From: Erwinia endophytica
GTDB taxonomy: Bacteria; Pseudomonadota; Gammaproteobacteria; Enterobacterales; Enterobacteriaceae
NCBI RefSeq assembly: GCF_009295515.1
Contig: NZ_RQVV01000053.1
Coordinates: 186,001 to 250,000 of the forward strand
Length of the DNA: 64,000 nucleotides
Direction: 5' to 3'
The translations under genes and the position numbers were made by a program. This document shows positions 4,682 through 46,847 of this stretch, one piece after another. Below the pieces are notes generated by a model. That model was not told the origin of the DNA, did not search any database, and saw only the letters and a list, made by a program, of their open reading frames with translations. Numbering within the stretch: position 1 is the first letter of the stretch; each line of letters starts with the position of its first letter.

Positions 4682-6343
4682 ATGGAAAGTGTTTTTACCA
4701 TCTTAGTGCTATTAACCACCGTAGGCTTATCCGGATTTGTAACCCGCGTTATCGCTCTAAAGTTACCTCTTCCGCTGATTCAGATCTTGTTGGGCTGTGT
4801 ACTGGCATGGCCGGGTTTTAGCCTGCATGTTACCTTTGATCCTGAGTTTTTCATGATGCTGTTTATCCCACCGTTACTGTTTGCTGATGCCTGGCGTATC
4901 CCGAAGCGTGAGTTCTTCAGGCAACGAGGCGCTATCCTGGCGTTGGCGTTGGGCCTGGCGTTGGTGACTGTACCGGTTATCGGTTATTCGGTTCATGCGT
5001 TAATCCCGGCGATACCACTGTCGGTGGCTTTCGCGTTGGCCGCGGTGCTGGCGCCAACCGATGCGGTCGCTTTATCGGGGATTGCCGGTAAAGGCGCAAT
5101 ACCCAGTAATCTGCGGCATATTCTGGAAGGCGAAGCGTTGATGAATGACGCATCGGGCCTGGTGGCGCTGAGGTTTGCCATCGCAGCGGCCATGACCGGC
5201 GTTTTTTCACTGCGTCATGCGTTTCTCAGTTTTGTGATGATTGCGGTTGGCGGACTGGCGATTGGGGCGGCGATAGGCTGGCTTTCTATTGTGCTCTCCA
5301 GTTGGTTTAAAAAGCGGGCGAGCGATGAAGATCCGGCTGCGGGGGTCATCATGATGCTACTGCTGCCGTTTGCCGCATACCTGTCGGCTGAACGGGCCGG
5401 ATGTTCGGGGATACTTGCGGCAGTAGCGGCTGGCATGATGATGAATTACCAGAGCCTGCGAGCGGATATGTCAATTGTGACGCGTCTGCGGATCAGGGGA
5501 ACCTGGGGGATGATCGAGTTCGTCTTTAATGGTATGACCTTTATTTTGTTAGGGTTACAGCTTCCGCACATTATCGGCTCGGCACTGATCGCCGCTGAAG
5601 CACAGGGCTATACGCATATGGTGGTACTCATTGGCTACGTGTTGCTGGTGCTGATGATGTTGCACTTATTGCGCTTTGGCTGGATGTGGGGATTGCGCTG
5701 GCTTGCCCGGCGTCGTAGACAACGCAATGCCACCGATCTGGCAGTGAGCGGCTGGCGTCCGTTAATCATTATGACCCTTGGCGGCGTCCGTGGCGCGGTA
5801 ACACTGGCGGGCGCACTGTCTTTGCCTATTTTATTACCGGATGGCATGCCTTTTCCCGGGCGTGAAATGGCTATTTTTATCGCATCAGGCACGATTCTCT
5901 GTTCGTTACTGGTGGCGATTGTTGGATTGCCAATGGTATTACACGGCGTGAGTGGCAAAGAGGATGGGCTCGCGGCTGAGGAACGTTATGCGCGTATTGA
6001 AGCCGCGCAGGCCGCCATTCGGGCACTGGCTGAGACTCATGATCAGATTAAGGTGGGACTGGATGAGTCGGCAACGGTGCGGGTAGCCGATTGTTTCGCC
6101 CGAGTCATGGATCTTTACCGACGGCATCTGGAAGTGCTTGGCGCGGACCAGACCGCAGATGAAATGGCCCGTCTTGATGATCAGGTAGATATCAAACTGC
6201 GTACCCGGGGATTGCAGGCACAGCGAGCTGAGCTGTTGCGGTTGCGCAGGCGCCAGAAGATCAATGATGAAACGCTGAACAAGTTACTTGCTGAAATTGA
6301 TTTGGCGGAAGCCGCACTCTTCACTCGATCGCGTACAGTCTAA
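4682..6343 (+). CDS. CPA1-family Na+/H+ antiporter (NhaP/YjcE-like)
   Basis: A 553-residue inner-membrane protein with about 12 hydrophobic segments in the first 410 residues and a charged cytoplasmic C-terminal tail of about 130 residues rich in Arg/Glu, probably helical. The segment APTDAVALSG followed by EGEALMNDASGLVALR carries the ion-binding Asp residues of the CPA1 (a_cpa1) family. Its length matches E. coli YjcE (549 aa), and the family exchanges Na+ (or K+) for protons in pH and salt homeostasis. It is a single gene, preceded by a long leader and followed after about 80 bases by the nucleotide-carrier-like gene. Confidence 0.85.
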   Translation: MESVFTILVLLTTVGLSGFVTRVIALKLPLPLIQILLGCVLAWPGFSLHVTFDPEFFMMLFIPPLLFADAWRIPKREFFRQRGAILALALGLALVTVPVIGYSVHALIPAIPLSVAFALAAVLAPTDAVALSGIAGKGAIPSNLRHILEGEALMNDASGLVALRFAIAAAMTGVFSLRHAFLSFVMIAVGGLAIGAAIGWLSIVLSSWFKKRASDEDPAAGVIMMLLLPFAAYLSAERAGCSGILAAVAAGMMMNYQSLRADMSIVTRLRIRGTWGMIEFVFNGMTFILLGLQLPHIIGSALIAAEAQGYTHMVVLIGYVLLVLMMLHLLRFGWMWGLRWLARRRRQRNATDLAVSGWRPLIIMTLGGVRGAVTLAGALSLPILLPDGMPFPGREMAIFIASGTILCSLLVAIVGLPMVLHGVSGKEDGLAAEERYARIEAAQAAIRALAETHDQIKVGLDESATVRVADCFARVMDLYRRHLEVLGADQTADEMARLDDQVDIKLRTRGLQAQRAELLRLRRRQKINDETLNKLLAEIDLAEAALFTRSRTV

Positions 6344-6421
6344 AGAGAGGGCAGAGTCCGATTTTACCGTCGCGGTCACGATGTTATGCGGTCTGGCAGG
6401 CAGATTGTCGAGAGAGATGCT

Positions 6422-7750
6422 ATGCAAACAGCCTTGAATAAAGCGGTGAAAAATCGGCTGGTAAGACTGACCCAGCTGGCTGGAGTTCGGCAGGAAGAGC
6501 TGCGACCGCTATGCTGGTGCGGGGTGTATATTTTCTGTGTGCTGTCAGCTTACTATGTTATCCGTCCCGTGCGTGACGCGTTTGGTAGTGCGAATGGAGC
6601 GGAGGATCTCCAGTGGTTGTTCAGCGCCACGCTTATCGCCATGCTGGTGTGCAATTTGCCGTTCGCTGCGTTGTCGCGCCGCCTCTCTCGCCAGCGGGCC
6701 ATCACCCTGTTTTATCGTTTTTTCATCGCCTGCCTGTTGCTGTTCGCCTTGCTGATCTCTGTGCTCAATGCTCCGGGGCGTCTCTGGCTGGGACGTGTAT
6801 TTTTTGTCTGGGTATCCGTATTTAATCTGTATGTGGTGTCCATTTTTTGGATGCTGATAGTCGATATTTTTGACAGCGACCGTGGCAAACGCCTGTTCGC
6901 GCTGATGGCTGCCGGCGCTACGTTGGGCGCTATAGCCGGCTCGCTGTTTACCATCACGTTGGTCAAAGTGGCAGGACCGGCAGGGTTGTTTTTATTGGCT
7001 GCCGTTCTGCTGGAATTAGCGGTCTGTTGCGTCCGACGCCTGACGCATTTAGCACCGCAGTTGCGTCATCCGTCCCGGCGTGTGGACGAAAATGACGGAC
7101 GACCGCTGGGGGGCGGCATCCTGAGCGGCATTGGCCACACGTTTCGCTCGCCTTATCTGCTGAATATTTGTCTTTACATGATATTGTTCTCGGTGACGTC
7201 GACGTTTCTCTATTTCCGTCAGGCGGAACTGGCGCGGCACGCGTTCTCTAATGATGGTGCCCGCTCCACGTTTTTCGCCAGCCTGGACTTGCTGGTCAAT
7301 GTGTTGACTCTCACGGTGCAAATCCTGGCCACCGGTCAGTTGCTGAGTCGTTTTGGCACCACCGCCGTGTTGATTATTCTGCCGGTACTGACTGTCGTGG
7401 GCTTTCTGGCGCTGGCATGGCAACCGTCACTGTTGGCTCTGGCTCTCTTTTCCGTCGTGCGGCGTGCCAGTAACTTCGCCATTGCCCGACCAACACGGGA
7501 GCTGTTGTTTACCGTGCTGAATCGGGAAGACAAATACAAAGCTAAAAGTTTTATCGATACCGCGGTTTATCGGGCGGGGGATCAGGTTGGCGCATGGAGC
7601 TGGACTGCGGCTGGCATGCTCGGCAGTTCCGGACCGGTATGGCTGTGGCTTGCCGTGCCGTTATCGGTATTCTGGCTGCTTAACAGCCTGTGGCTGGGGC
7701 AGCGGCAACAGCGTTTGGCATCGGCGCCTCAGGCGAATGCCCCGAGATAG
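6422..7750 (+). CDS. ATP/ADP-translocase-like (Tlc/NTP-NDP exchange type) membrane carrier
   Basis: A membrane protein of about 443 residues with around 11-12 TM segments. The N-terminal motif SAYYVIRPVRDAFG and the intracellular DIFDSDRGKRLFALMAAGATLGAIAG resemble bacterial NTP/NDP exchange transporter (TLC) relatives, which are distantly MFS-like. The start at 6422 has an AGAGAG five bases upstream; an in-frame ATG at 6386 would add 12 residues. True nucleotide exchangers are typical of intracellular bacteria; free-living homologues have unknown substrates, so nucleotide transport should not be assumed. No operon partner is evident. Confidence 0.65.
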   Translation: MQTALNKAVKNRLVRLTQLAGVRQEELRPLCWCGVYIFCVLSAYYVIRPVRDAFGSANGAEDLQWLFSATLIAMLVCNLPFAALSRRLSRQRAITLFYRFFIACLLLFALLISVLNAPGRLWLGRVFFVWVSVFNLYVVSIFWMLIVDIFDSDRGKRLFALMAAGATLGAIAGSLFTITLVKVAGPAGLFLLAAVLLELAVCCVRRLTHLAPQLRHPSRRVDENDGRPLGGGILSGIGHTFRSPYLLNICLYMILFSVTSTFLYFRQAELARHAFSNDGARSTFFASLDLLVNVLTLTVQILATGQLLSRFGTTAVLIILPVLTVVGFLALAWQPSLLALALFSVVRRASNFAIARPTRELLFTVLNREDKYKAKSFIDTAVYRAGDQVGAWSWTAAGMLGSSGPVWLWLAVPLSVFWLLNSLWLGQRQQRLASAPQANAPR

Positions 7751-7955
7751 GTCATGATGAAAACGATTATCTCAGACCCGGTACCCCCATGATCAGCGGC
7801 ACCCTCCCGATATGACTTTTACCATTTTTGTCTGCTATCGCTATAGTGCCCAGAAAATTTATAATTAATTGATATATATAAGTTAAAAATTTATTTTTAT
7901 GTGTCGTTGTCATTTGACAAGGGGGGCGCCAAAGCCTGGGTTATCCAGGTAACAT

Positions 7956-7973
7956 TCGTGATGTTCATCACAT
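7956..7973 (+). promoter_or_regulatory. CRP-like site upstream of the cupin gene
   Basis: The sequence CGTGATGTTCATCACA contains the half-sites GTGA and TCAC spaced by six bases, close to the CRP consensus TGTGA-N6-TCACA. It lies about 45 bases before the ATG at 8018, a plausible position for regulating the cupin gene by carbon status. Match by eye only. Confidence 0.5.
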
Positions 7974-8017
7974 TAAACAGCGCCCATTGGGCCCGTAAAT
8001 GCTGTACGGAGGTCGAT

Positions 8018-8617
8018 ATGGCAATGTGTTCACGTCGGGATTTTATGCGGTTCATCTCTTGCCTGGCCGCGAGCGCGCCGGTATTGCTGCAAGCGGCGAC
8101 GCAAACAAATTCAGCCGCGACAATGCAGGCGCAACGCTTACCGTTGGAAGCCAATGGCTGGGTGCCTAATAACCCACATCTACCGGTATTGCTTTATCGT
8201 CATGTGCTTAGTGGCGCAACGGCAGCGGTGGCGGGTACCGAAGCCTTGTTCGAACGTACCGGCTGGCCGCCTCAGTGGGTGGCCAGCGTTTACCCTTTCC
8301 ACCATTACCACAGTACCGCGCATGAAGTCCTGGGTTTCGTCAGCGGCGAGGCTCGCCTGATGTTGGGCGGGCCCGGTGGACATGAGGTCACCGTGCAGGC
8401 TGGCGATGTGGCGTTGCTACCTGCTGGCACGGGGCATTGCAATTTGGCGAGCAGTGATGATTTCGTTGTCGTCGGTGCTTATCCACCCCGGCAGGATTGG
8501 GATATATGCCGGGAGCCGCCCTCTAAAGCCATGCTGGAGCGTATCGCGCATCTGCCGTTTCCGCACAGCGATCCTGTCTATGGTGTGCAGGGGCCATTGC
8601 GGCAGGCGTGGAGCTGA
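8018..8617 (+). CDS. Cupin-domain protein (YjlB-like) with Tat-type signal
   Basis: A 199-residue protein beginning at the ATG with GGAGG six bases upstream; the longer in-frame ORF from 7901 lacks such a site. The N-terminus has a twin-arginine pattern SRRDFMRF followed by a hydrophobic stretch and a small-residue end (LLQAAT), suggesting Tat export. The body contains the cupin metal motif [16 protein letters not shown] and the second motif with PAGTGH, as in YjlB-type cupins, a family of unknown reaction. An exported cupin implies a folded metalloprotein sent to the periplasm. A CRP-like site precedes the gene. Confidence 0.75.
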
Positions 8618-10739: not shown

Positions 10740-11254
10740 TGCCGCCATTGAACTTCACGCGGGTCATGCCCGTGCCGGGCATCAACATTATTGCTGTCAG
10801 GCACGCAGCCGAAGCGTTCAACTTGAATATAAATACCGAGCCTGCCAGCAGGGCATGAAGGATCAGATCATTGATCTTGCCATGAATAATGCTGGCATCC
10901 GCGACACCGCACGAGCATTGCTAATGCCGTTGCGCGCACGCTAAAAAACTTTCGCCGAAAAACGTCACCTCTCTTCCACTGGATAATCTGCGCATTGGCG
11001 AAGTGGATGAAATGTGGTCATTTTTCGGGGGAGCTTTCAGGTTTTAATGTGGCCTTATGGTGTGCCGATAATTTCAGTGCTTATGACGGGTTACCGAATG
11101 AAAAGCACATCACAGGTAAGCTTTACACACCACGAATTGAGCGTGAAAACCGGAACCTGACTGAACCGCAAGACAACTGGGGTCCTCAACATCAGCTGAA
11201 ATGCATGACAGGATCATTGGTACGTTTATCGAGCGTGAGCATTATGCAGCGTAA
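10740..11254 (+). mobile_element. Degraded IS1-family element (insA/insB remnants)
   Basis: The frame around 10760-10930 encodes AGHQHYCCQ, YKYRACQQG and QIIDLAMNNAGIRDTARAL, matching the IS1 InsA protein. Further on, LDNLRIGEVDEMWSFFG (about 10975-11028), then LYTPRIERENRNL (near 11122-11160) and HDRIIGTFIEREHYAA ending in a stop at 11252-11254 match pieces of InsB in different frames. Internal deletions and frameshifts make it inactive. I could not identify intact terminal inverted repeats or a target duplication. It marks the left edge of the ceramide-type gene block. Confidence 0.75.
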
Positions 11255-11530
11255 TACTCATCACCATATTGAATACATAACCCATTTCAGTAACTGACAC
11301 ATATCACGACACTGAGAGACGCCATGGAACGGAAAGACCTGCCAGATCGAGACCGATGGTTGTCATCTTCATGATGAACGTTTCCGGTCATTAAATGATC
11401 GCGTTTTATACGCTGTGTCATTTAAATTGGGGCGTCTATTTCATCAGGCGCGTGTATTGGTGAGCGATGTTACCCGATGATTATTTTTGTTGCCAGGGCA
11501 ACATCGCGGAAGGATTTTTGTGTCGCGGTA
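11255..11530 (+). other. Non-coding or decayed segment right of the IS1 remnant
   Basis: No intact gene is visible. On the plus strand a frame of about 48 codons ends at a TGA at 11478-11480 and includes the residues HDERFRSLNDRVLYAVSFK; it lacks a start and I do not recognise it, so it may be debris of a gene. The segment lies downstream of the minus-strand ceramide operon and should contain its transcription end, but no clear hairpin-plus-T-run was found. Confidence 0.35.
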
Positions 11531-12703
11531 TTAATCTTTCAGTGCAGCAAAGGCCCGAATAATAGTATCGATTTCTTCTTCGCTGTGCGCCGCATTAACG
11601 CTACAACGCAGCAGAGTAATGCCTGATGGTGCAGCAGGGGGTAAAACGAGATTGACATACACCCCATTGGATATCAAGTCGCGCCAGAGGCGCAGTCCAT
11701 CTTCTTTCGAGCCAATCATTACCGGGACAACAGGACTGATCCGTGGGCCCAGCTCATAACCGAGTTCAGCCAGACCGCGATAGAGTCTGTGTGCGTTACT
11801 CCAAAGTTTGTCACGCAGGCCTGGATTTTGCGCGATAGTTCTTAAAGAAGAACGCACAGAGGCGATACTGGATGGTGAGGGTGACGCAGTAAAAATGTAA
11901 GGACGGCTGCTATAACGTAAAACGTCCATGGCTTTAGCGCCGACGGCAAATCCGCCGATAGAGGCTAAACTCTTGCTAAAGGTACCCAGTATAATATCAA
12001 CATCCTGCTCAACACCCAGCTCTTCGGCAAGGCCGCGGCCAGTCGCGCCCATAACCCCGAAGGAGTGCGCTTCATCCACGAGCAAATAACCACCAAGACG
12101 GCGTTTGATATCGACAATTTCGACCAACGGAGCAACATCGCCCAGCATGCTATAAATGCCTTCAACGATAATTATCGCTTCACGCGCTTTCTCACCCAGG
12201 CGCAGCATACGGCGCTCCAAATCTTGCGCGTCATTGTGGCGGAAACGAATAATTTGTGCGCCGCCTAAAGCGCAAGCGTCATAGATGCTGGCATGAGAGT
12301 CTTCGTCTATCAATACGATGGCGTCAGGACCAGCAAGCGTGCTGATCACGCCCAGATTAGCGGTATAACCGGTTGAGAATACAATGGCGCTGGGACGATC
12401 AAAAAAAGCGGCCAGCTCTTGCTCCAAAGCAAGGTGAGAGCCATAACTACCGTTAGCCATACGTGAACCGGTTGTTCCGGTGCCTTGAGCGGCTAAGGCC
12501 GCCTGGCCGTCAGCAATCGCCTGGGTATTGAAAGTCAGCCCCATGTAGTTATTGGTGCCTGCCAGGACAACCTTCTTATCGCCAATACGCCCTTCGGTGG
12601 CTGAATAGATCTCATCAATACAGGTGCCGAATGGATTCAGGCCGGATGTCTGGAATTTTTCACGCTCGCCAGCAAGTCGCGCAAATTTGTCATACAGACC
12701 CAT
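11531..12703 (-). CDS. spt: Serine palmitoyltransferase-like alpha-oxoamine synthase (first step of ceramide synthesis)
   Basis: A 390-residue PLP enzyme of the alpha-oxoamine synthase family, which condenses an amino acid with an acyl thioester and releases CO2. Visible are DEDSHAS (His138 stacking on PLP), LLVDEAHSFGVMG (DEAH at 210-213) and TFSKSLASIGG with the Schiff-base Lys244. The start at 12703 (MGLYDKF) matches the N-terminus of bacterial serine palmitoyltransferases; a longer frame to 12760 would overlap the ACP gene heavily. The gene overlaps the end of the ACP gene by 14 bases. KBL or BioF are alternatives by fold, but the neighbours (ACP, epimerase-type reductase, acyl-AMP ligase, N-acyltransferase) match the Caulobacter ceramide cluster. 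Expected product: 3-ketosphinganine. Confidence 0.8.
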   Translation of the reverse strand: MGLYDKFARLAGEREKFQTSGLNPFGTCIDEIYSATEGRIGDKKVVLAGTNNYMGLTFNTQAIADGQAALAAQGTGTTGSRMANGSYGSHLALEQELAAFFDRPSAIVFSTGYTANLGVISTLAGPDAIVLIDEDSHASIYDACALGGAQIIRFRHNDAQDLERRMLRLGEKAREAIIIVEGIYSMLGDVAPLVEIVDIKRRLGGYLLVDEAHSFGVMGATGRGLAEELGVEQDVDIILGTFSKSLASIGGFAVGAKAMDVLRYSSRPYIFTASPSPSSIASVRSSLRTIAQNPGLRDKLWSNAHRLYRGLAELGYELGPRISPVVPVMIGSKEDGLRLWRDLISNGVYVNLVLPPAAPSGITLLRCSVNAAHSEEEIDTIIRAFAALKD

Positions 12704-12950
12704 TAGTACTCTCCATATGTGGGAGTAGGGCATCCAGCAATTGCTCAGGCGTTCTGACATTCAGCAGGATATTAATCGGGATAGAAATATCCAGCTTGTC
12801 TTCTAACATCATCAACAGGTTCATGACTTTTATGGACTCCAGACCAAGATCATTGACGAGGTCACTGTCAGGCTTTATCTCTTGATTGCCTGTGGCCATA
12901 CCTTGTAAACACTCGAGGATATAATCCATCAAAACTTCACGATTTAACAT
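12690..12950 (-). CDS. Acyl carrier protein dedicated to the sphingolipid operon
   Basis: An 86-residue acyl carrier protein. The phosphopantetheine site is the Ser of DLGLESIKVMNLL (Ser39), with the usual four-helix pattern and acidic character. I take the ATG at 12950; an in-frame start at 12998 would overlap the preceding gene and is less like an ACP N-terminus. It sits between the reductase gene and the serine palmitoyltransferase-like gene, both close-packed, so it is part of one minus-strand transcript. In the Caulobacter pathway a dedicated ACP carries the acyl group used by the condensing or N-acylating enzyme; the same role is inferred here. Confidence 0.85.
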   Translation of the reverse strand: MLNREVLMDYILECLQGMATGNQEIKPDSDLVNDLGLESIKVMNLLMMLEDKLDISIPINILLNVRTPEQLLDALLPHMESTNGSV

Positions 12951-12981
12951 AGAAACTCTTATATACCTATGATCATAATAA

Positions 12982-13896
12982 TTAAAATAGTCTGTCACGC
13001 AGCGCGTGTTCCAGACTTATTTTAGGAAACCAGTTAATTGAATTGGACAAATCGTTATTGCTTGCTGACCAGTCACTATGGGTTAATTCGCGGATTTTAC
13101 TGCGAGTTAGCATCGGTTCCTGTCTGACTAAACGGCTCGATAACGTGCTGATATCAGCAATTATTTTAAGCAAAGGTAGAGGAATTCCGATTAACCGTAC
13201 TGGAGCATGACGTACTGCGCTACCGATTTCTTGCAGGCGTGTCCAATTATACCCCCCCGCCACACCGTCACATAATTCATATGGATGATTATGCGATGGA
13301 GAAACGGTTAACCATTGCCCAACCGCTTCAGCTAAATCACTCACATGAAGAAATGATAGCTGTGAGTCAGGCGCACCAAGCTGTGGAAGTACACCACGGA
13401 GAAGCCAACTGAACAAGGGCTTCAACTCTTTATCGCCCGGCCCATAAACTGCGGTTGGGCGAAAAATGCCAAGAGAAATATTCGCGGCTGCCATTATTAA
13501 TTTTTGTTCGGCAACGTGTTTTGAATTCGCGTACCAGGACAGTTCAGGGTGACGGGCAGCAAGCGAGGACATAAATAGAAAACGCTTACAATTGCCGCTT
13601 TCTCTGGCGGCTTGCATCAAATGCAGGCTGCCTGTCACATTACACTCAGTGAAAGTTTCTTCCTTGCTTCCACGAACTTGCCCTGCGCAATGGACAACAT
13701 ATTCAGCATCGCGCACCAGCTCCGAAAGCGATTTTTTATCTTCTAACGCTCCCTGTACCCAAACCACATTGTTGTTTGAGGAGCGACGTGCGCGTCTGGT
13801 CAAAGCACGTACAGTGAACCCGCGTGAAAGCAGATTATCAACAATGTGCCTGCCGATAAATCCGGTCACACCTGTCACTGCGACCGTTTTTGTCAT
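12982..13896 (-). CDS. cerR: NAD-dependent epimerase/dehydratase-type reductase, CerR-like
   Basis: A 304-residue extended short-chain dehydrogenase with the nucleotide loop GVTGFIG (9-15) and the catalytic pair Tyr122-x3-Lys126 (YANSK). In bacterial ceramide synthesis an enzyme of this type (CerR) reduces the 3-keto group of 3-ketoceramide. The ATG overlaps the stop of the acyl-AMP ligase gene (ATGA), so both are co-translated, and 31 bases separate its stop from the ACP start. A sugar-nucleotide epimerase function cannot be excluded from the fold alone, but no glycan genes are nearby and the lipid context is consistent. Confidence 0.75.
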   Translation of the reverse strand: MTKTVAVTGVTGFIGRHIVDNLLSRGFTVRALTRRARRSSNNNVVWVQGALEDKKSLSELVRDAEYVVHCAGQVRGSKEETFTECNVTGSLHLMQAARESGNCKRFLFMSSLAARHPELSWYANSKHVAEQKLIMAAANISLGIFRPTAVYGPGDKELKPLFSWLLRGVLPQLGAPDSQLSFLHVSDLAEAVGQWLTVSPSHNHPYELCDGVAGGYNWTRLQEIGSAVRHAPVRLIGIPLPLLKIIADISTLSSRLVRQEPMLTRSKIRELTHSDWSASNNDLSNSINWFPKISLEHALRDRLF

Positions 13897-15635
13897 TGTG
13901 CATAGCCTGCTAATTGTAACTGCGGACCAATTAATTCAGTCAGATAACGTTTTCTGGCCTCAGCCCGTGCAGGTTTCCCTGATGACGTCCGCGGAATACT
14001 ATGGGGAGGCATCAGTACAATATCGACAGCAACGCTGAATTCACTTTGAATGCGCGATGTCAGAGAGTGGATAATTTGCTCCCGACGTTCTTCAGAACTC
14101 ACCCGGCACTGGATCTGCAAAATGATTCTGGCGCCTTCATCGTGATCCTGGGAGGTCACAAAGGCGATTGCGTCACCAGGACGGATTTCTGGTTCTGATT
14201 CCGCGACATATTCAATATCCTGAGGCCAAATATTACGACCACGAATAATAATCAGATCTTTTTTACGGCCCGTTACGTACAGGTTTCCGTCCAGCATATA
14301 ACCTAAATCGCCGGTATCCATCCACCCCTGGCGTTGGATTTGTTGCTGGGATGTCGTATCGTGGAAATAGCCCCTCATCAGGCTGGGGCCAGAAATACAG
14401 ATATGACCGACTTCCCGTTCTGGCAGCGGCGCGCCTGTTTCGCTACGAATTTCAATATGATGGCCAGGTAGCGCTTTGCCACAGTTGACGAAAGTGGCCG
14501 TCGCCCGCGTATTTTGAGTTGGGGCAACCGCTTTACGGTTATACTCCAGACTGTCACGGTCAATCACGTTGACGCGTGGACCTGATGAGGCATCAAAAAA
14601 ACTCACGGCCAGCGTGTTTTCGGCCAGACCATAGCATGGTCTAAAGGCATCGCCATTAAACTGTACCTGACTGAAATGCTCACTGAATTTATTTAATAAT
14701 TCAGCAGGAATGGGCTCAGCGCCAACTCCGGCAATACGCCAACTGGAAAGATCTAATTCGGCTAATTCTGTCTCGTTGCTGCGACGCAGGCAAATATCGT
14801 AACCAAATGGCGGAGAAACAGAGACGGTTGCACGGTTCTTGGTGATCAATTTAAGCCACTGCATTGGACGCATGGCAAAATCCTGGGTCCGCAAATAGTC
14901 AACGGAGAGCTGTGTCGCCATTGGCGTCAGGACAAAACCAACCAGGCCCATATCATGATAGAAAGGCAACCAGGAAACACAGCGATCACCCGCGCGTACT
15001 TTAATACCATCGTGACTAATCGCTCGCAAGTTAGCCATGACAGAACGTTGGGTTATTATCACACCGCGAGGAAAACGCGTGCTTCCAGACGTATATTGCA
15101 GATAAGCAATATTGTCAGGTGAAGGAGGTTGCAGTACGACATCCTTTTCAGGCAGAGCATTGAAGTCTGCATTACTGAGGATATGTATAGGCTGCGCTTC
15201 AGCACTGCGTGCAGAGCTAATTAACGGCAACCATTCATCACTGCTGATAATAGCCGAAGGATTGCAGCTATTTAATAGCCCCTGGAGCTTTTCGATATAA
15301 GAAGCGCTTTGCCCAATACCCATAGGGATAGCAAGGGGAACGGCAACCAACCCTGCATATTGACAAGCAAAAAAGGCTTCCACAAAGCCAACACTGGTTT
15401 CAGCGATTAGCGCGACACGGTCACCTTTATTGAGGTTCAGTGATAATAGACGACGCGCACCCGTAATCGCCCGCTCGCGTAGCGTGTGATAAGGCAGCGC
15501 AGCCAGAAGTTGATTACGTCTGTCGTAAAAATTCATCCCTGTACTTCCTTGGGCGGCATAATCTAAAGCATCCACCAAAGTCGGGAAATCCGCATAACGC
15601 AAGGGAAGAGAGTGAATGGAACTTGTTTTATACAT
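13893..15635 (-). CDS. Fatty-acyl-AMP ligase / acyl-ACP synthetase
   Basis: A 580-residue ANL-superfamily adenylating enzyme. It has the AMP-binding loop YTSGSTRFPRG (181-191), GYMLDGNLYVTGRKKDLIIIRG-type hinge sequence, and the C-terminal catalytic Lys in RTSSGKPAR. The hinge with GRNIWPQDIE is typical of fatty-acyl-AMP ligases, which pass acyl chains to an ACP rather than to CoA; a dedicated ACP gene lies two genes downstream. The start is set at the ATG at 15635; another in-frame ATG at 15656 would add seven residues, and neither has a strong ribosome-binding site. First gene of the minus-strand operon. Corresponds in position and family to the acyl-CoA/ACP synthetase of the Caulobacter ceramide cluster. 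Confidence 0.8.
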   Translation of the reverse strand: MYKTSSIHSLPLRYADFPTLVDALDYAAQGSTGMNFYDRRNQLLAALPYHTLRERAITGARRLLSLNLNKGDRVALIAETSVGFVEAFFACQYAGLVAVPLAIPMGIGQSASYIEKLQGLLNSCNPSAIISSDEWLPLISSARSAEAQPIHILSNADFNALPEKDVVLQPPSPDNIAYLQYTSGSTRFPRGVIITQRSVMANLRAISHDGIKVRAGDRCVSWLPFYHDMGLVGFVLTPMATQLSVDYLRTQDFAMRPMQWLKLITKNRATVSVSPPFGYDICLRRSNETELAELDLSSWRIAGVGAEPIPAELLNKFSEHFSQVQFNGDAFRPCYGLAENTLAVSFFDASSGPRVNVIDRDSLEYNRKAVAPTQNTRATATFVNCGKALPGHHIEIRSETGAPLPEREVGHICISGPSLMRGYFHDTTSQQQIQRQGWMDTGDLGYMLDGNLYVTGRKKDLIIIRGRNIWPQDIEYVAESEPEIRPGDAIAFVTSQDHDEGARIILQIQCRVSSEERREQIIHSLTSRIQSEFSVAVDIVLMPPHSIPRTSSGKPARAEARKRYLTELIGPQLQLAGYAQ

Positions 15636-16443
15636 ATTACAACATGACCATAACATTAATTTATTAACGACAAATAATACAGACTCTTAGTGATGCGAGA
15701 AGTAGAGTTTTTGTAAGAATTTGTATAGTAGTAATGCGACACTTGTTATTGATACTATAAATAACTTAATGGATTATCTTATCTGACGGCATCTTGAATG
15801 GCTAGTGTTTATGAGGTCCCACCATAAAAATGGTATGGTGTTTTCGCCAAAACAGCATTAAGTGGTAAAAGAGAGTAGGGCCTCTCAGGATGGCGCTGAT
15901 GGCTGATGTATCGCATTATATGCCTAATGCGCGGAGAGCTGTCCTCGGCATAATTTTTATTTGGCGCTTATTTTGGTGAAAAATTGACTCAATAGAGTCC
16001 AAATATTCAAATAACAGGAAAGTGTCCAGCCGATAACTCTCCAGTCTCTTACTCAGGGAATGACGGGAATGCAGCCAATGCGCCAGCAATTCGAAGCAGA
16101 ATGGGAGATATCTCATTTTGCTTAAAAATCTGCCGTTAATGTTACTTCTGACTTGTTGAGGTCTGGAGGAATAATGTATTGCATCTGTTCTGACAACAGC
16201 ATTGCGATGAAGGGGATATGTCCATAACGTATGATTATATTTAAATCTAATAATCACCCATCGTTACTAATGCGGTATTTATTTGAAATGTTTTTGTCAG
16301 AATTAGGTAAGGCATTATTGCTTTTTCTGTTTCCAGCAAGGTGGGTAAGGACAAAATATCAATAGCTCACATACTGGATAATGTAGACAGATTCATTGTG
16401 TGTTTTTTCAGTATATTTTTTATAGATAGATATAAGGGTGTTT
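15636..16443. other. Divergent intergenic region between the two ceramide gene arms
   Basis: About 800 A+T-rich bases separate the acyl-AMP ligase (minus) from the N-acyltransferase (plus) and must carry both promoters. Apart from one doubtful minus-strand frame (15916-16257, listed separately) no gene is seen. A short imperfect repeat CCACCATAAAAATGGTATGG lies near 15829-15848. The low G+C compared with flanking core genes fits horizontally acquired DNA. Confidence 0.4.
15916..16257 (-). CDS. Doubtful small ORF in the divergent region
   Basis: A 113-codon frame within the A+T-rich divergent region. The product would be basic, rich in Arg, His and Leu, with no motif I recognise, no signal peptide and no clear ribosome-binding site. 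It may be a real small gene, a decayed fragment, or chance. I report it only because it occupies an otherwise long gap. Confidence 0.2.
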   Translation of the reverse strand: MIIRFKYNHTLWTYPLHRNAVVRTDAIHYSSRPQQVRSNINGRFLSKMRYLPFCFELLAHWLHSRHSLSKRLESYRLDTFLLFEYLDSIESIFHQNKRQIKIMPRTALRALGI

Positions 16444-17568
16444 ATGTTTCGCATTGAAAAAGTCGTGGATAAGCGTGATCTCAAGGAATTTATAGCTTTT
16501 CCGTCTTCACTGTATCACGGTGATCCTAACTGGATTGATCCCTTGTATCTGGAACGCTTAGAGCACCTTTCTGAGAAAAACCCAAGCAGTGAACATATAG
16601 AGTGGCAGGCATGGGTAGCCAAAAAAGGGGAGCAGGTTGTCGGCAGGATAACGGCGCAAATTGATACATTGCACCGCGAACTTTATGGTGAGGATACCGG
16701 GCATTTTGGCATGATTGATGCCATTGATGATCCTGAAGTTTTCAGCGCACTATTTGCCGCAGCAGAAGCGTGGTTGAAGTCTAAAGGCGCGACAAAAATC
16801 ACTGGCCCCTTTAGCCTTAATATCAACCAGGAGAGTGGCTTGTTGATTGATGGTTTTGATACGCCACCTTCAGCGTTAATGGTTCATGGTAAACCTTATT
16901 ATGGCACCAGGGTAGAGCAGCAGGGGTATACCCAGGGGATAGATTTACTGGCTTATTGGATGAAGCGAACAGACCTGCATTTTTCTCCGTCATTAAACAA
17001 ACTCATGGCAAATGTGCGCAAAAAAGTGACCATCCGCCGTCTGGATCGTAAGCGGTTTAATGAAGAAATGCAGGTGTTACGGGAGATCTTTAACTCTGGA
17101 TGGCAGAATAATTGGGGATTTGTGCCTTTTACTGAGCACGAGTTTGCTACCATGGGAGAACAGTTAAAGTTCCTGGTACCGGATGACCTGATTTATGTTG
17201 CGGAAATAGATTCTGTTCCTGTGGCGTTTATCGTTGGTTTGCCAAATATTAATGAGGCGATCTCGGGTCTGAATGGGCGTTTGTTTCCTTTTGGCTGGGC
17301 TAAGTTACTGTGGCGTCTGAAGGTGAGTGGGGTGCGAACCGCCCGAGTGCCACTGATGGGGGTGCGCCATGAGTATCATTTCAGTCGTATGGGACCCGTC
17401 ATTGCCCTGCTACTTATTGAAGCGTTACGTGATCCCTTCGCGAAGCGGAATATTGATGCTTTAGAGATGTCCTGGATCTTAGAGACCAATACCGGTATGC
17501 GAACTATCCTGGAGAAAATTGGTGCGGTCCCTTATAAGCGTTATCGTTTGTACGAAAAACATCTCTAA
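16444..17568 (+). CDS. bcerS: GNAT-fold N-acyltransferase, bacterial ceramide synthase-like
   Basis: A 374-residue protein starting at the ATG with AAGGG five bases upstream (a GTG at 16438 is an alternative). It reads as a large GNAT-type acyltransferase: the N-terminal region with YHGDPNWIDPL, the segment RITAQID, then GPFSLNINQESGLLIDGFDTPP, and a C-terminal half with ALEMSWILETNTGMRTILEKIGA. This arrangement is characteristic of the soluble bacterial ceramide synthase group represented in Caulobacter, which N-acylates the sphingoid base and is unrelated to eukaryotic ceramide synthases. It is divergent from the spt-acp-cerR-ligase operon and is followed 28 bases later by a DgkA-type kinase. 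Substrate specificity is inferred from context. Confidence 0.7.
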   Translation: MFRIEKVVDKRDLKEFIAFPSSLYHGDPNWIDPLYLERLEHLSEKNPSSEHIEWQAWVAKKGEQVVGRITAQIDTLHRELYGEDTGHFGMIDAIDDPEVFSALFAAAEAWLKSKGATKITGPFSLNINQESGLLIDGFDTPPSALMVHGKPYYGTRVEQQGYTQGIDLLAYWMKRTDLHFSPSLNKLMANVRKKVTIRRLDRKRFNEEMQVLREIFNSGWQNNWGFVPFTEHEFATMGEQLKFLVPDDLIYVAEIDSVPVAFIVGLPNINEAISGLNGRLFPFGWAKLLWRLKVSGVRTARVPLMGVRHEYHFSRMGPVIALLLIEALRDPFAKRNIDALEMSWILETNTGMRTILEKIGAVPYKRYRLYEKHL

Positions 17569-17596
17569 CTAAAATATGTTATAAGAGAAAACGTTG

Positions 17597-17956
17597 ATGT
17601 CACTTGAAAAGAGGAAAGGGATCAAGCGATTAACAAGCAGCATTAATCATTCGCTGGCTGGTTTTGTTAATGCCTTGTTAACTGAGGATGCCTTTCGTCA
17701 GTTGTTTATTATTAGCGCAATATTACTGGTTATCGCACTTTTTTTGGACGTGACAAAAATAGAGCGTTTATTCTTGATTTCCAGTTGTTTTCTTTTATTG
17801 ATGGTCGAGTTACTTAACACCGCCATTGAAACGGTAATAGATCGAATTTCTTTAGATATCCATCCATTATCAAAGCGGGCAAAAGATTTGGGGGGAGCGG
17901 CACAGTTAGTTACTGTGGTGATGACCATCATAATTTGGTTAATTGTTTTGCTTTGA
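17597..17956 (+). CDS. dgkA: DgkA-family lipid kinase (candidate ceramide/diacylglycerol kinase)
   Basis: A 119-residue integral membrane kinase of the prokaryotic DgkA family. It has the EDAFRQ segment, three hydrophobic helices, and the active-site region ELLNTAIETVIDRI followed by HPLSKRAKDLGGAAQ. The family phosphorylates diacylglycerol and, in vitro, ceramide. The start is the ATG at 17597. It lies 28 bases after the ceramide-synthase-like gene, so it is probably in the same transcript. The housekeeping dgkA of enterobacteria normally lies beside lexA, making this copy likely an extra, pathway-specific enzyme that phosphorylates the ceramide or sphingoid base. That role is inference. Confidence 0.85.
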   Translation: MSLEKRKGIKRLTSSINHSLAGFVNALLTEDAFRQLFIISAILLVIALFLDVTKIERLFLISSCFLLLMVELLNTAIETVIDRISLDIHPLSKRAKDLGGAAQLVTVVMTIIIWLIVLL

Positions 17957-17963
17957 ACATTCA

Positions 17964-18031
17964 GACGGGTAGTTAATATTGTGAACAGGCATTATCTCAG
18001 ATAATGCTGATGCTCAATAAATATACCCGTC
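17964..18031. repeat. Nested inverted repeats downstream of dgkA
   Basis: An outer stem GACGGGTA (17964-17971) pairs with TACCCGTC (18024-18031). Inside it a perfect 9-bp palindrome GCATTATCT-C-AGATAATGC occupies 17989-18007. Directly after a stop codon and between convergent genes this could end transcription or protect RNA ends, but there is no T-run. Confidence 0.5.
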
Positions 18032-18147
18032 ATTCTGCAAACTATCGATGTGTTGAGGCGTAATTAGCCAACTGAATCTGAACGTGTCAGTTCATTGGTT
18101 GACGCCACCAGAGCATCCCAATAGCTATTCTCAACGTCAAGAATAAG

Positions 18148-18184
18148 ACAGCCCAGTGCATGAACAAACTATGCACTGGGCTGT
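18148..18184. terminator. Strong hairpin between convergent genes
   Basis: A perfect 14-bp inverted repeat ACAGCCCAGTGCAT / ATGCACTGGGCTGT with a 9-base loop lies between the convergent dgkA-like and thymidylate-kinase-like genes. It has no long T-run on either side, so a bidirectional terminator is likely but not certain. The rest of the 17957-18280 gap holds the nested palindrome listed separately and no gene. Confidence 0.55.
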
Positions 18185-18280
18185 GTGGTATTGATGTGAT
18201 GCGGTTAGCGCCGGTATTTTTGCTTTGTTCTTCCGCTGAGGATATATACCTGTGGCAATCTCTCATCGTGTGATTAGTGA

Positions 18281-19051
18281 TTATGCGGGTTGGTTACAGA
18301 CCACCTCTTGCTGTCTACGCTGAGAAGCTACCGCTACGGAAGATACGGCATCCAGAGCCTTTTCCAACACTTCGTTATAGGGTGCTCTGGAGTCCAGATC
18401 GAGAATCCGGGAACCGTTGTAATTAAGCTCGACCATTACCGCAATTTTATCCTGCAACTCTTCATAACTATGGTCAGGTTTACGGGCAAAAGCGGTTTCG
18501 ACATCAATATCAAGGCGAATAATTAATTCAGGACGGCATAAAGCCATTCGTTGATACAACTTGCGCTCACGTAATGCCAGTCGGGTCATCAGCCAGCCAG
18601 TCACGCGTTCGACGCCAATGCCCGGTCCGTCATAATGAAAACCTGACATTTCGGCCTGTGGAAAGCGATCACTAATCACCAATACGCCACTTTGTGCCAG
18701 ACGTTGTACTTTGCCTAAATTAGACTCACGCCACAATGAGAGCCCGTACATTATTAAGGCAGCCCAGAGAGGTGGCGCTTTGCTACTCATGCTCTGCGTT
18801 TTCTCAGATTTGGCCGCCAGGCGTCGCTCAAGCCATACCCCGATAAACGGCAAACGTTTAATTTTATCGCCGTCTTCACCGGAGATGAGCCCTAAATAGC
18901 GACGTTCAGTCACAAAATGCTTCTGCAGGTTTTTGACTAAGTCTGCTGTAAGCGTGGATTTGCCCGTGCCATCACAACCCACTACCGCAACAAGCCCTGG
19001 CACATAAGTGGGGGATGATTCGTTGTCTGTATTCACTCTGTCTGTTTGCAT
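18281..19051 (-). CDS. Thymidylate-kinase-like P-loop protein A
   Basis: A 256-residue P-loop kinase-fold protein with Walker A GCDGTGKST (25-33), DRFPQAE in mid-protein (like the DR motif of thymidylate kinases) and ARKPDH plus Glu in a LID-like position near residue 190. It shares these motifs and an extra LPFIG / KSEKTQS region with the two neighbouring proteins, so the three are paralogues. The true housekeeping tmk is normally next to holB elsewhere, so these are unlikely to serve dTMP synthesis. Their place beside sphingolipid genes suggests phosphorylation of a lipid or headgroup precursor; the substrate is unknown. Confidence 0.65.
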   Translation of the reverse strand: MQTDRVNTDNESSPTYVPGLVAVVGCDGTGKSTLTADLVKNLQKHFVTERRYLGLISGEDGDKIKRLPFIGVWLERRLAAKSEKTQSMSSKAPPLWAALIMYGLSLWRESNLGKVQRLAQSGVLVISDRFPQAEMSGFHYDGPGIGVERVTGWLMTRLALRERKLYQRMALCRPELIIRLDIDVETAFARKPDHSYEELQDKIAVMVELNYNGSRILDLDSRAPYNEVLEKALDAVSSVAVASQRRQQEVVCNQPA

Positions 19052-19093
19052 TTATATTGATATCAAAAGGTATGCACAAGCCTGAGCTTGTGA

Positions 19094-19813
19094 CTACGAA
19101 AGAGAAGTGCGAATCGCATCTAACGATTCATCGAGAATCTTACTGGCGGGTTCCCGGCCATCTAAATCAAGAATCTTTGCGCCATTAAAAGTAAGATTGG
19201 GTATGACCTTGATTTTCTCGCGCAATGCTTCGAGCTTGTGATCAGGCTTGCGTGAATACGCCGTTTGTTCGTCAACATTAAGTCGAATCAATAACAGGGG
19301 AGGATAAGAGGCCATCCACTGGTACAGTTTTTGCTCACGTTTTCTCAGCGCGCGTACCCAAAAGTTACCTCCAGTTGCTTTTGCCAACTGAGGCCCATCA
19401 AAGCGAAACCCCGCGACCTCAGCTTGCGGGTAACGATCGGTAACCAGTAATTGCCCCTGTTGAGTCTTCTTCAGCATTTTCCTGAATTTGTAGGCGCGCC
19501 AACAAGACAGTAAATAGATAACCAGAGAGGTGACATTACCTGGGGGAGCGCTGGGCCTGTCATGTACACGATCAGACTTAGCCACCAAATAGCGACCAAC
19601 ACAAGCCCCAATAATGGGTAGACTGCTGATCCATTCACCTATGCGTCCCGATGACTGCCCGAGATAAAGCTGTTGTGTCGGCCATTGCGTAGAAAGATGG
19701 CTGACTAAACTGGCAGCTAAAGTCGATTTACCAGAGCCATCACAACCGGTTATCGCAATCACACGCACAGGGGCATGGTTGGTAAAGGGGGTAATCTCTT
19801 GACTCACTTCCAA
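19094..19813 (-). CDS. Thymidylate-kinase-like P-loop protein B
   Basis: A 239-residue paralogue of proteins A and C. Walker A is GCDGSGKST (23-31); DRYPQAE and SRKPDH are conserved, followed by a conserved C-terminal pattern L-x-F/Y-NGAKILDLD. It lies 42 bases upstream of protein A on the same strand, so the two are probably co-transcribed. The gene for protein C diverges from it across a 148-base region that must carry both promoters. Function unknown; a nucleoside-monophosphate-kinase fold is well supported, the substrate is not. Confidence 0.65.
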   Translation of the reverse strand: MEVSQEITPFTNHAPVRVIAITGCDGSGKSTLAASLVSHLSTQWPTQQLYLGQSSGRIGEWISSLPIIGACVGRYLVAKSDRVHDRPSAPPGNVTSLVIYLLSCWRAYKFRKMLKKTQQGQLLVTDRYPQAEVAGFRFDGPQLAKATGGNFWVRALRKREQKLYQWMASYPPLLLIRLNVDEQTAYSRKPDHKLEALREKIKVIPNLTFNGAKILDLDGREPASKILDESLDAIRTSLS

Positions 19814-19961
19814 AAACCTAAGATTAAAAAAAGATATTGTATGCTAATTGACCCTCGACCTTCAAAATATTTTTCCCATTTAGCAATAAGAGCTACTATT
19901 GACGACTTTTCTCTTTACAAATGATATATTCTTCGAAATATATTGAGGGAGAGTATTTTTT

Positions 19962-20687
19962 ATGCATTCTAAATTCCCACCGCTAATATCGGTTATTGGC
20001 AGCGATGGTTCTGGGAAATCCACTGTTTGTGAACACCTTATTAGCTGTCTGGAAAAATATGGTCCCGCAGCTCAGGTTCACCTGGGTAAACAGGCTGGTA
20101 ATGTAGAACGTGCGGTCGTTAAGCTTCCTTTCATGGGGCGTATTCTTCGCAAGTCAATAGATAAGAATAAAACCAAGGTCGCTAAGTCTCATCCCAGCGC
20201 TTTGCCTGCTTTAGTCATTATGTCTTTTGTGGTACGCCGATTATTGCGTTTTCGGCGTATGCTGGCTTTGCGTAAACGTGGTTTCATTATATTGTCCGAT
20301 CGTTTCCCTCAAGTTCAGTTTCCTGGTGCTTATGATGGCATGCTGCTTCCTCCCAGCGTACCGGGTAATCGTTTTGTGACATGGCTGGCGGGACGTGAGA
20401 GGGCGGCTTTTTACTGGATGGCCACTCAGAAACCTGATTTAGTCATTAAACTCAATGTTGATCTTGATGTCGCCTGCGCACGTAAGCCGGATCATGAGCG
20501 AGAGTCTCTCGCCAGGAAAATAGCTATAACGCCAAAACTGACATTTGAAGGCGCAAAAATTATTGATCTTGATGCTAATAAACCGCTTGATGAGGTATTA
20601 CGTGCAGCTGAGGAAGCCGTAACGAATTTCATGGAAACGCGTGGCTATCACTATATTGATGAAGGCAAGTCTGTCGCCACCTCATAG
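19962..20687 (+). CDS. Thymidylate-kinase-like P-loop protein C
   Basis: A 241-residue third paralogue, with Walker [10 protein letters not shown] (13-21), [14 protein letters not shown], and ARKPDH with following Glu. It ends with [19 protein letters not shown], matching the C-terminal pattern of A and B. Transcribed divergently from B, and the last intact gene before a non-coding, IS-scarred stretch leading to ychF. Three tandem-type copies around one promoter region suggest local duplication and divergence rather than chance association. The substrate is unknown. Confidence 0.65.
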
Positions 20688-39812: not shown

Positions 39813-40766
39813 CTAGTTAACGGTGCGCCAGGCGCCAATAGCCGGATCGGCAAGGTCTGCATGCAGGTCATCAATCAGCAGCACATTAATTTTAATTTGT
39901 TGATCCACCACTGACTCCCAGGCCTTGCGCACTGCGTCTGCCTGGGTTTTCAGTACCGTTGGATCGCTAGCCAGATTTTTATCCATCTTTACCAGCAATG
40001 TGCCGTCAAATGACCAGACGTGCAAATCCGGATTAAATCTCAGCAGTAGCCAGCTGTTCGGCGCGTCTTTTTTGCTCACCACCAGACGCTGGTTGTTGGC
40101 GGCAACGATATCCAGTTCTCCGGGGGTGGGATGTAGGTTGCGCAGTGGGAACCCCGCGTAAAACTGCACGGCTATCGGTTGGGTTTTCCCGTTGACAGTC
40201 AGCGTGAGCTCGTTTTTTCCTTCCAGCCACCCTTCAGCCGAACAGCTCAGGTTTTTACCGTCCGGGATAAACAATGACTGCCCATTTTCATCCCACCAGG
40301 TACGAAAATGGCAACCGCCTGGCAGCTCGAAATACTGCAACGGAGCATTGCTGGCGGGTTGGGATAAATCCAGTGGTTCGGCATTGTAGGCCGTGGCGGC
40401 GGCAGTCGCGTCAGCGATGACAATGGGACGCCAATCCTGTGCTTTAGCCGCGGTACCGGTGGCCAGCACGGAACCGGTATCATTGGTCATCTGCCAGGGC
40501 AGTTCTTCCAGGTTATTGCACTGGTTTTGCAACAGATTACCTACGCGTGGCAGAAAGCTGGTGAGTACACTGGACTCCTCGTTTTTACCGGAAACGATGC
40601 GCAGATGCAGCGTTTCATTACACCAGTCCTTCGGTGCGTTACTCGCAACGTTATCGATATACACCTCCAGCGCCAGGCTGGGGGAATATACCACGCGATA
40701 GTCCTCAGCCTGTACGGCAGTTGGTATCAACAATGTGACAGTCGTGGCTGGCAACCAAAATCTCAT
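39813..40766 (-). CDS. Periplasmic T6SS-associated protein of unknown function (RtkS-like position)
   Basis: A 317-residue protein with a signal peptide cleaved after AVQA (residue 20) and no further TM segment. It has several Cys and a beta-rich look, with YFELPGGCHFRTWWDENGQSLFIPDG in the middle. I recognise no enzyme motif. It overlaps the phosphatase gene by four bases and lies directly before the kinase gene. In Serratia a periplasmic protein (RtkS) beside the kinase controls PpkA; a comparable role as sensor for the kinase's periplasmic domain is inference from position only. Confidence 0.6.
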   Translation of the reverse strand: MRFWLPATTVTLLIPTAVQAEDYRVVYSPSLALEVYIDNVASNAPKDWCNETLHLRIVSGKNEESSVLTSFLPRVGNLLQNQCNNLEELPWQMTNDTGSVLATGTAAKAQDWRPIVIADATAAATAYNAEPLDLSQPASNAPLQYFELPGGCHFRTWWDENGQSLFIPDGKNLSCSAEGWLEGKNELTLTVNGKTQPIAVQFYAGFPLRNLHPTPGELDIVAANNQRLVVSKKDAPNSWLLLRFNPDLHVWSFDGTLLVKMDKNLASDPTVLKTQADAVRKAWESVVDQQIKINVLLIDDLHADLADPAIGAWRTVN

Positions 40767-41557
40767 AGCGTTTCCTGGTGTGAATCCCGCGGCGGTAGAA
40801 AACGGGCAGAATCCGCCATCGATTGTAATAGTGTTATATCCTGGGGCGAACCGACCCAGATCGCCACCGCACTCAAATTATCTTTTTCTTCGCTGTGGTT
40901 GATGGCTCTCTGCATCAGCACCAGCCATTCTTCAGGCGAATTAACCATACGTAATGCTTGTTCCATTTCTTCCTGCGTCAGACTGCACCAAAAGCCATCG
41001 GTACAGATCAGGAATGCATCGCCATCTTCCAGCGGAACCACCGGGCTGTAACTGACCGACGGAAGGCCGTCCACACCGAGTGCATTATAGAGTAAATTAC
41101 TGTTAATTCCGGCATTATCAATACCTGCATCCCGCATTTGTTGTGCCAGGCTGTGATCCTGGGTTACCGAATGAATAAACCCCCGGTGAAAGTGATAAAT
41201 GCGGCTGTCACCTGCGTGCGCCCACCATGAACGCTGCAAGTCACGGTCAATAAACAGCGCGGCAATAGTGGTGCTCATGTGCTTGAAATCTTTCATATTG
41301 CGCTGTGCCTGACGTATCGCCAGATCAGCATTTTTCATCCAGCGAGCCGTGTCCCCTGGATTGATTGCTTCATCATCTGCCAGTTCAGACAGTAATGCAT
41401 TCCGTGCTATCCTGGCCGCCACGTCGCCCCCAGCCGTTCCGGCTACGCCGTCACAGACCAAAAAACAGGCGCAATGTTCGCCCAATAATACACCGGTCTC
41501 ATCCTGATTACTTTCTCGTGCTCCTGCCTGTGATGTCGCGGCATAGTTAATATTCAT
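40763..41557 (-). CDS. pppA: PP2C-type protein phosphatase (PppA-like)
   Basis: A 264-residue metal-dependent Ser/Thr phosphatase. Metal-binding motifs are seen as ESNQDE, VCDGVAGTAGG, AHAGDSRIYHF and ICTDGFW. In T6SS it dephosphorylates the FHA protein and so counteracts PpkA. Four-base overlaps join it to the FHA gene upstream and the periplasmic-protein gene downstream. Confidence 0.88.
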   Translation of the reverse strand: MNINYAATSQAGARESNQDETGVLLGEHCACFLVCDGVAGTAGGDVAARIARNALLSELADDEAINPGDTARWMKNADLAIRQAQRNMKDFKHMSTTIAALFIDRDLQRSWWAHAGDSRIYHFHRGFIHSVTQDHSLAQQMRDAGIDNAGINSNLLYNALGVDGLPSVSYSPVVPLEDGDAFLICTDGFWCSLTQEEMEQALRMVNSPEEWLVLMQRAINHSEEKDNLSAVAIWVGSPQDITLLQSMADSARFLPPRDSHQETL

Positions 41558-42720: not shown

Positions 42721-42759
42721 GCACTTTTCCTGAAGCCAGGGCCATCAGGCCTGATAACT

Positions 42760-46809: not shown

Positions 46810-46847
46810 CAAACTTTACTGTCTCTACAGTGCGGCACTTGCCGGGC

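Follow-up and report, generated by a model that had tools for sequence, protein, structure and literature searches.

A predicted sphingolipid island in Erwinia endophytica and its counterparts in Escherichia coli

Could a member of the Enterobacteriaceae make sphingolipids and, if so, what would become of them? The question is raised by a gene cluster of Erwinia endophytica (NCBI RefSeq assembly GCF_009295515.1) in a stretch of 64,000 nucleotides (contig NZ_RQVV01000053.1, positions 186,001 to 250,000; here called the window, in whose coordinates positions are given). A first-pass annotation, made from the letters of the window and its open reading frames, had placed a complete ceramide biosynthesis gene set at 11531..17956. 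Judged by sequence comparison, 11531-20687 is probably the biosynthetic half of an enterobacterial sphingolipid island. We consider it likely that the island makes dihydroceramide, phosphorylates it and exports it.

The ceramide core

All five open reading frames assigned to ceramide synthesis by the first-pass annotation are present where it placed them. Their families are borne out by NF047599, PF00550, PF01370 and NF006624 and, for the N-acyltransferase, by a GNAT fold. With their predicted functions, they are:

11531..12703, minus strand: spt, serine palmitoyltransferase (SPT), 390 aa; NF047599; 81% identical to Spt of E. coli BL21; best PDB matches are the SPT structures 2x8u and 2jg2
12690..12950, minus strand: acpR, dedicated acyl carrier protein (ACP), 86 aa; PF00550; 72% identical to BL21 AcpR
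12982..13896, minus strand: cerR, NAD-dependent ketone reductase of the pathway, 304 aa; PF01370; 70% identical to the BL21 protein; YANSK motif
13893..15656, minus strand: aasR, fatty acyl-AMP ligase (FAAL) / acyl-ACP synthetase, 587 aa; NF006624; 73% identical to BL21 AasR
16444..17568, plus strand: bCerS (yghO), tandem-GNAT N-acyltransferase, 374 aa; predicted fold; 80% identical (299/374) to BL21 YghO

The start of spt is taken as the ATG at 12703 (not 12760), as in the records of E. coli BL21, a Rahnella plasmid and a Klebsiella plasmid. That of acpR is taken as the ATG at 12950, as in both plasmid records; the BL21 record starts later (82 aa). With these starts, aasR and cerR overlap by 4 bases, and acpR, directly upstream of spt, overlaps it by 14. 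The description of the minus-strand genes as one overlapping operon thus holds for these two pairs but not for cerR and acpR, which lie 31 bases apart.

Spt scores 608 bits against the NCBIfam serine palmitoyltransferase model NF047599 (cut-off 500), whereas the BioF, KBL, autoinducer and other listed alpha-oxoamine synthase models remain below their own cut-offs. One finding named in advance as speaking against a ceramide pathway was a synthase nearest to KBL or BioF. Among solved structures, however, Spt is closest to SPTs (384 bits), with BioF/KBL following at 205 bits. Given the sub-threshold models and the SPT-first structure matches, we rejected a BioF/KBL or autoinducer-synthase reading of this protein. 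The pyridoxal phosphate (PLP) motif TFSKS is identical in all 29 aligned SPTs, the window's included. AcpR matches PF00550 with 46.7 bits (GLES(I/V) is present in 29/29 aligned sequences), CerR matches PF01370 with 95.7 bits and has GVTGFIG in addition to YANSK, and AasR scores 860 bits against the fatty acyl-AMP ligase model NF006624 (cut-off 600). For bCerS, no Pfam family exceeded its cut-off (Acetyltransf_1, 18.1 bits versus 20.7), and a profile of 17 sequences retrieved nothing among solved structures at E values up to 1. A GNAT call from sequence was therefore dropped. Because the sequence searches fell short, the assignment rests on the tandem GNAT fold of the predicted structure; matches of that model also include Eis, FemX and N-myristoyltransferase, from which we took no function. 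The window genes match those of relatives in length, and motifs are intact where checked.

The families are those of the published dihydroceramide sets of BL21 and of Caulobacter, the latter being the comparison made in the first-pass annotation: orthologues of all five genes (aasR, cerR, acpR, spt, cerS) are present and clustered. In E. coli BL21(DE3), yghO-aasR-cerR-acpR-spt (ECD_02850-02854; PMC9386255) have the same order, with a divergent yghO, and yghR, yghS and yghT are also there. BL21 differs in having no dgkA beside yghO, and its lptG2-lptF2-ytfJ-hyp-yghQ adjoin spt, whereas the window's genome has these genes on another contig. A link of the BL21 core to ceramide is already in print (PMC9386255). 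In that study, BL21 AcpR is a phosphopantetheinylated ACP acylated by BL21 AasR, and BL21 Spt with Caulobacter AcpR and AasR gives a compound that runs as 3-oxo-sphinganine on thin-layer chromatography. Sphinganine- and ceramide-like compounds also appeared, "possibly by intrinsic enzymes" of BL21; ECD_02852 is the proposed reductase and ECD_02850 (yghO) the proposed N-acyltransferase (PMC9386255). The Caulobacter crescentus cluster (CC_1168-CC_1152; PMC11324152, PMC10331486) has the same five ceramide families by name, the link being made through the BL21 publications, and is likewise accompanied by a proposed flippase and second LptF/LptG copies.

The steps to the backbone follow from orthology to the BL21 set, in which AcpR, AasR and Spt are tested in print and CerR and YghO are proposed. 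AasR would convert free fatty acid to acyl-AMP and load the acyl group onto AcpR, and Spt would form 3-oxo-sphinganine from acyl-AcpR and L-serine. N-acylation by bCerS and reduction by CerR would then yield dihydroceramide, in an order that is disputed (PMC11087976). If the genes are expressed, we think that a dihydroceramide backbone is very likely to result.

Candidate head-group kinases and the proposed exporter half

The stretch originally proposed does contain the five genes, but its end at 17956 is the end of a sixth, then unnamed gene (DgkA-type), and the island runs on to 20687:

17594..17956, plus strand: dgkA2, DgkA-type integral-membrane lipid kinase, candidate ceramide kinase, 120 aa; PF01219; own clade
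18281..19051, minus strand: yghR orthologue, thymidylate-kinase-fold P-loop protein, 256 aa; 72% identical to BL21 YghR
19094..19813, minus strand: yghS orthologue, thymidylate-kinase-like P-loop protein, 239 aa; 70% identical to BL21 YghS
19962..20687, plus strand: yghT orthologue, thymidylate-kinase-like P-loop protein, 241 aa; 70% identical to BL21 YghT

DgkA2 scores 106.7 bits against PF01219 (gathering cut-off 22.3). In a tree of 31 DgkA sequences, one branch (support 100/100) splits 15 cluster copies from 16 housekeeping copies. All 31 share Glu28, Glu69, Asn72, Glu76, Lys94 and Asp95, whereas position 34 is Leu in 15/15 cluster copies and Glu in 16/16 housekeeping copies, and position 98 is Gly in the former (15/15) and Ser in the latter (16/16). 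E. coli DgkA (PMC4703834) has the family, size and catalytic residues of DgkA2, which differs from it by Glu34 to Leu, Ser98 to Gly and a separate clade. A role proposed for Glu34 of the E. coli enzyme is to make Glu69, the base by which the glyceride hydroxyl is activated, more basic (PMC4703834), and the enzyme serves as a reagent for phosphorylating ceramide so that it can be measured (PMC4291487). Given the clade, the fixed substitutions, the retained catalytic residues and this reagent use, we consider a ceramide-dedicated DgkA plausible, the alternative being that the enzyme is weakened.

There are two DgkA genes in all nine genomes with a cluster dgkA and one in all five without (14 of the 23 locus genomes given); the window's own genome has two. 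Cluster copies were identified in 12 of 22 scorable named enterobacterial loci and in both plasmid islands (L018, L019, L021-L027, L029, L032, L033, L038 and L043 in our numbering), and in 15 of 28 loci of a wider enterobacterial set. In the Serratia, Sodalis, Pantoea, Rahnella-plasmid and Klebsiella-plasmid islands that carry it, dgkA2 lies beside bCerS and the core is that of the window. Where wholly in view, these islands are in one piece (two of them plasmid-borne), whereas that of the window is split.

YghR, YghS and YghT score 26.2, 22.2 and 20.1 bits against PF02223, below the gathering cut-off of 27, yet the thymidylate kinase fold was recognized. YghR is present in 37/37 spt-positive family genomes tested, from 17 genera. 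Among 246 family genomes it was found in 19, identical to the 19 with spt over the cut-off. The trio occurs in 27 of 28 enterobacterial loci, and two genomes from other families also have it near spt. Beside the trio of one distant member of the order, a gene (L117, 9371-9913) encodes what a motif suggests to be a PAP2-type phosphatase, which could act on a phosphorylated lipid.

The Caulobacter head group involves CpgB (a GGDG-type ceramide kinase) and further genes (PMC11324152, PMC10331486), whereas enterobacterial loci have YghR, YghS and YghT and, in some cases, DgkA2. With a CpgB-like kinase from Pseudomonas plasmid pPNP1 (L020) as query, relatives were found in 0/28 enterobacterial loci and in 3/9 non-enterobacterial loci (itself included); in the window's own genome, a search run without a positive control gave no match. 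Besides this kinase, the pPNP1 island has LptF2/G2 and a nucleotidyltransferase. At about 6.8-8.8 kb its bCerS match is in two pieces, and an IS5 transposase is annotated there.

The exporter genes are at the end of contig C1 of the same genome: a second LptF/LptG pair, a YghQ flippase (74% identical to that of E. coli), hyp and ytfJ. The genes yghQ, lptF2 and lptG2 are full length. In Sodalis sp. dw_96 (L021) and a metagenome-assembled genome (MAG; L022), ytfJ-hyp-yghQ-lptF2-lptG2 directly follow spt in the order seen on C1, with ytfJ inverted in L021. At the corresponding position downstream of spt, the window has an insertion sequence remnant, followed by unrelated genes:

10772..11286, no strand assigned: remains of an IS1-family transposase, decayed, flanked by spt and an unrelated SDR gene; distant blastn matches

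Among the matches listed, the remnant is 73-80% identical to plasmid IS1 elements, in two pieces; no inverted repeats of at least 14 bases were found. As the remnant occupies the position of the exporter genes, the break probably lies between spt and ytfJ and was IS-linked, and an IS1-associated rearrangement probably parted the biosynthetic and exporter halves in this genome. The terminal 150 bases of C1 had no match among plasmids. In Caulobacter, LptC2/F2/G2 and the flippase are proposed to move phosphosphingolipids outward (PMC11324152), and the enterobacterial exporter parts look like that system. For Hyp (~272-289 aa), we identified no Pfam family above cut-off and no convincing solved structure (best E 1.2); a CHAD-like domain was considered but found no support. 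Parts of a type VI secretion gene set, judged by eye, are present at 40763-47345 of the window and, beside the exporter half on C1, at 5991-8557 of locus L069.

The proposed product and its alternatives

Beyond the backbone, DgkA2 would phosphorylate dihydroceramide, and YghR, YghS and YghT would extend or modify the phosphorylated head group. YghQ (a MOP-type flippase), LptF2/LptG2, the YtfJ-like protein and Hyp would bring the product to the outer membrane. That the trio acts in the same pathway is likely; Lpt-like export we regard as fairly probable, and a phosphorylated head group as somewhat favored. A role in host interaction is speculation. One specific route, different from that of Caulobacter, seems doubtful in its entirety. 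In it, a retargeted DgkA (the Glu34Leu clade) or, in E. coli, the housekeeping DgkA would form dihydroceramide-1-phosphate, YghR, YghS and YghT would build a pyrophosphate or activated head group, and the flippase and LptF2/G2 would deliver it to the outer membrane. The pyrophosphate idea comes from the construction of the trio, which is that of kinases turning a monophosphate into a diphosphate.

Several observations count against a phosphorylated and exported dihydroceramide. Single genes expressed in BL21 gave lipid profiles like the empty vector, and compounds migrating like 3-oxo-sphinganine, sphinganine and ceramide were seen upon joint overexpression of AcpR, AasR and an SPT (PMC9386255). 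Given these profiles, expression of the resident BL21 genes may be low under ordinary growth conditions. Leu34 could weaken DgkA2 rather than retarget it. Of the 22 named loci that can be scored, 10 lack dgkA2, as do the E. coli islands examined, and thus it is not essential to every version of the island. We know of no substrate for YghR, YghS or YghT, and nucleotides are what thymidylate kinases act on. G484, another genome of the order, contains a YghT-like sequence that matches weakly (33%), with no spt within the 19.9 kb read, and two distant islands in other families show neither aasR nor lptF2/G2 in the stretches read. Finally, ytfJ on C1 (L069, 145-833) reads in two overlapping frames, through either a genuine frameshift or faulty assembly close to the end of the contig; the frame change might impair export in this organism.

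Instead of a membrane sphingolipid, the product of the five genes might be a long-chain amino alcohol or an N-acyl amide, such as a secreted signal formed by a synthase of the BioF, KBL or autoinducer type. The PLP synthase family is common to those enzymes, and FAAL-ACP pairs are used in many natural-product pathways. We nevertheless find this very improbable: the SPT model is over its cut-off while rival models are below theirs, SPT structures are ~180 bits ahead, the product of BL21 Spt (81% identical) runs as 3-oxo-sphinganine, and the linked LptF2/LptG2 and flippase suggest an envelope lipid. A less remote but still unlikely case is that the core makes dihydroceramide while DgkA2, as a spare diacylglycerol kinase, and YghR, YghS and YghT, as nucleotide kinases, are passengers. 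Both families have such an ancestry, DgkA2 is not part of every island (10/22 are without it), and yghR outnumbers spt among complete E. coli genomes (4579 versus 4088 of 5426). The last of these also fits loss of the core, as in K-12. Passengers would not be expected from the presence of YghR in every spt-positive family genome (37/37) and in none of the rest of the 246 genomes, from a trio-spt linkage kept in other families, or from a separate DgkA2 clade in which Glu34Leu and Ser98Gly are found in 15/15 copies (Glu and Ser in 16/16 housekeeping ones).

It is also possible, although we doubt it, that the island is decaying and yields nothing in this organism, having been split by an IS1-linked event and its ytfJ damaged. 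The IS1 remnant beside spt, the separate exporter half and the two frames of ytfJ are consistent with decay, and K-12 provides a precedent, with most of the island gone and an IS5 at the site. Set against this are the window genes themselves, which match related genes in length and whose motifs proved intact wherever they were checked, and the full-length yghQ, lptF2 and lptG2 on C1; the frame change in ytfJ could be an assembly error. We continue to prefer an island for a dihydroceramide that is phosphorylated and exported. If it works, a rarely sought class of outer-membrane lipid exists in many enterobacteria of guts, plants and insects, and the head-group chemistry set by DgkA2 and the three kinase-like proteins is testable in BL21.

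Distribution, probable spread and loss in E. coli

The first-pass annotation called such a lipid unusual for Enterobacterales, and this did not stand. Of 5426 complete E. coli genomes, 4088 carry spt (about three quarters; 4074 with the window's spt as query). In the GTDB family, 37 of the 392 genomes that were sampled have it over the model cut-off, and the BL21 set is in print (PMC9386255). Within the same complete E. coli genomes, yghR is present in 4579 (~84%). Among 23 named enterobacterial loci (L021-L043), spt, acpR, hyp, yghQ and ytfJ are present in all, as is cerR (cut in one), while aasR, bCerS and the thymidylate-kinase-like trio are present in 22 and lptF2/lptG2 are complete in 21. 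Locus L028 starts within cerR, at the end of a contig, and shows no lptF2/G2 in 12 kb; in L023 the edge of the locus falls inside lptF2.

In the genus, spt occurs in 13 of 37 genomes (the window's own included). Two sampled congeners lack it (G119, G222) and two have it (G293, G353). G293 has a differently ordered island near ychF, as in the window, and in G353 spt is ~35 kb from ychF. The window's core groups with the MAGs L022 and L023, Sodalis sp. dw_96 and Pantoea coffeiphila (support 0.99), not with E. rhapontici. The G+C content of the island is 0.461, compared with 0.543 before it and 0.520 after it; only 6 of 110 sliding stretches of island size are equally low, and all six overlap the island. 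Protein searches identified related islands on Rahnella and Klebsiella plasmids, although a megablast search of the island against plasmids gave no match. The patchy congeners, core grouping, low G+C and plasmid islands fit horizontal spread of the island. Both spt and yghO are present in a 354-kb plasmid record of E. coli (NZ_MG591698.1), so this species, too, has its version of the island on a plasmid.

E. coli K-12 MG1655 (L061, 19044-24824) has yghO, an IS5 (insH9), a shortened yghQ (355 codons versus 449), yghR, yghS and yghT. At the site of this IS5, BL21 carries aasR, cerR, acpR, spt, lptG2, lptF2, ytfJ and hyp. As the IS5 stands where BL21 has the remaining genes, K-12 has lost most of the island. 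E. coli is generally regarded as sphingolipid-free, an image perhaps due to loss of the core at the IS5 site of K-12. On the route via dihydroceramide-1-phosphate set out above, the orphan K-12 genes yghO, yghQ, yghR, yghS and yghT would be leftovers of a lost lipid pathway; if the island works, all five gain a hypothesis for their function. In the MG1655 record YghO is annotated as a putative transcriptional regulator, whereas the predicted structure of the orthologous window protein is that of a tandem GNAT acyltransferase. When yghQ was deleted in K-12, the minimum inhibitory concentration of chlorhexidine rose two-fold, though a yghQ plasmid did not restore chlorhexidine sensitivity in the resistant isolates (PMC8170033); we see in this a weak hint of an envelope role.

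Among the literature titles listed, none treats enterobacterial ceramide synthesis or DgkA together with sphingolipids, and none ties yghO, yghQ, yghR, yghS or yghT to sphingolipids, though PMC9386255 names yghO as an N-acyltransferase gene. As far as this literature goes, and with earlier statements on K-12 or DgkA possible, the new part is the wider anatomy of the island: DgkA2 and YghR, YghS and YghT instead of CpgB-type genes, the split in this genome, and the K-12 relics. In E. coli NZ_CP141736.1 and NZ_AP045828.1, an IS1A element is annotated between the two pieces of a divided spt match, so loss of the pathway seems recurrent in this species.

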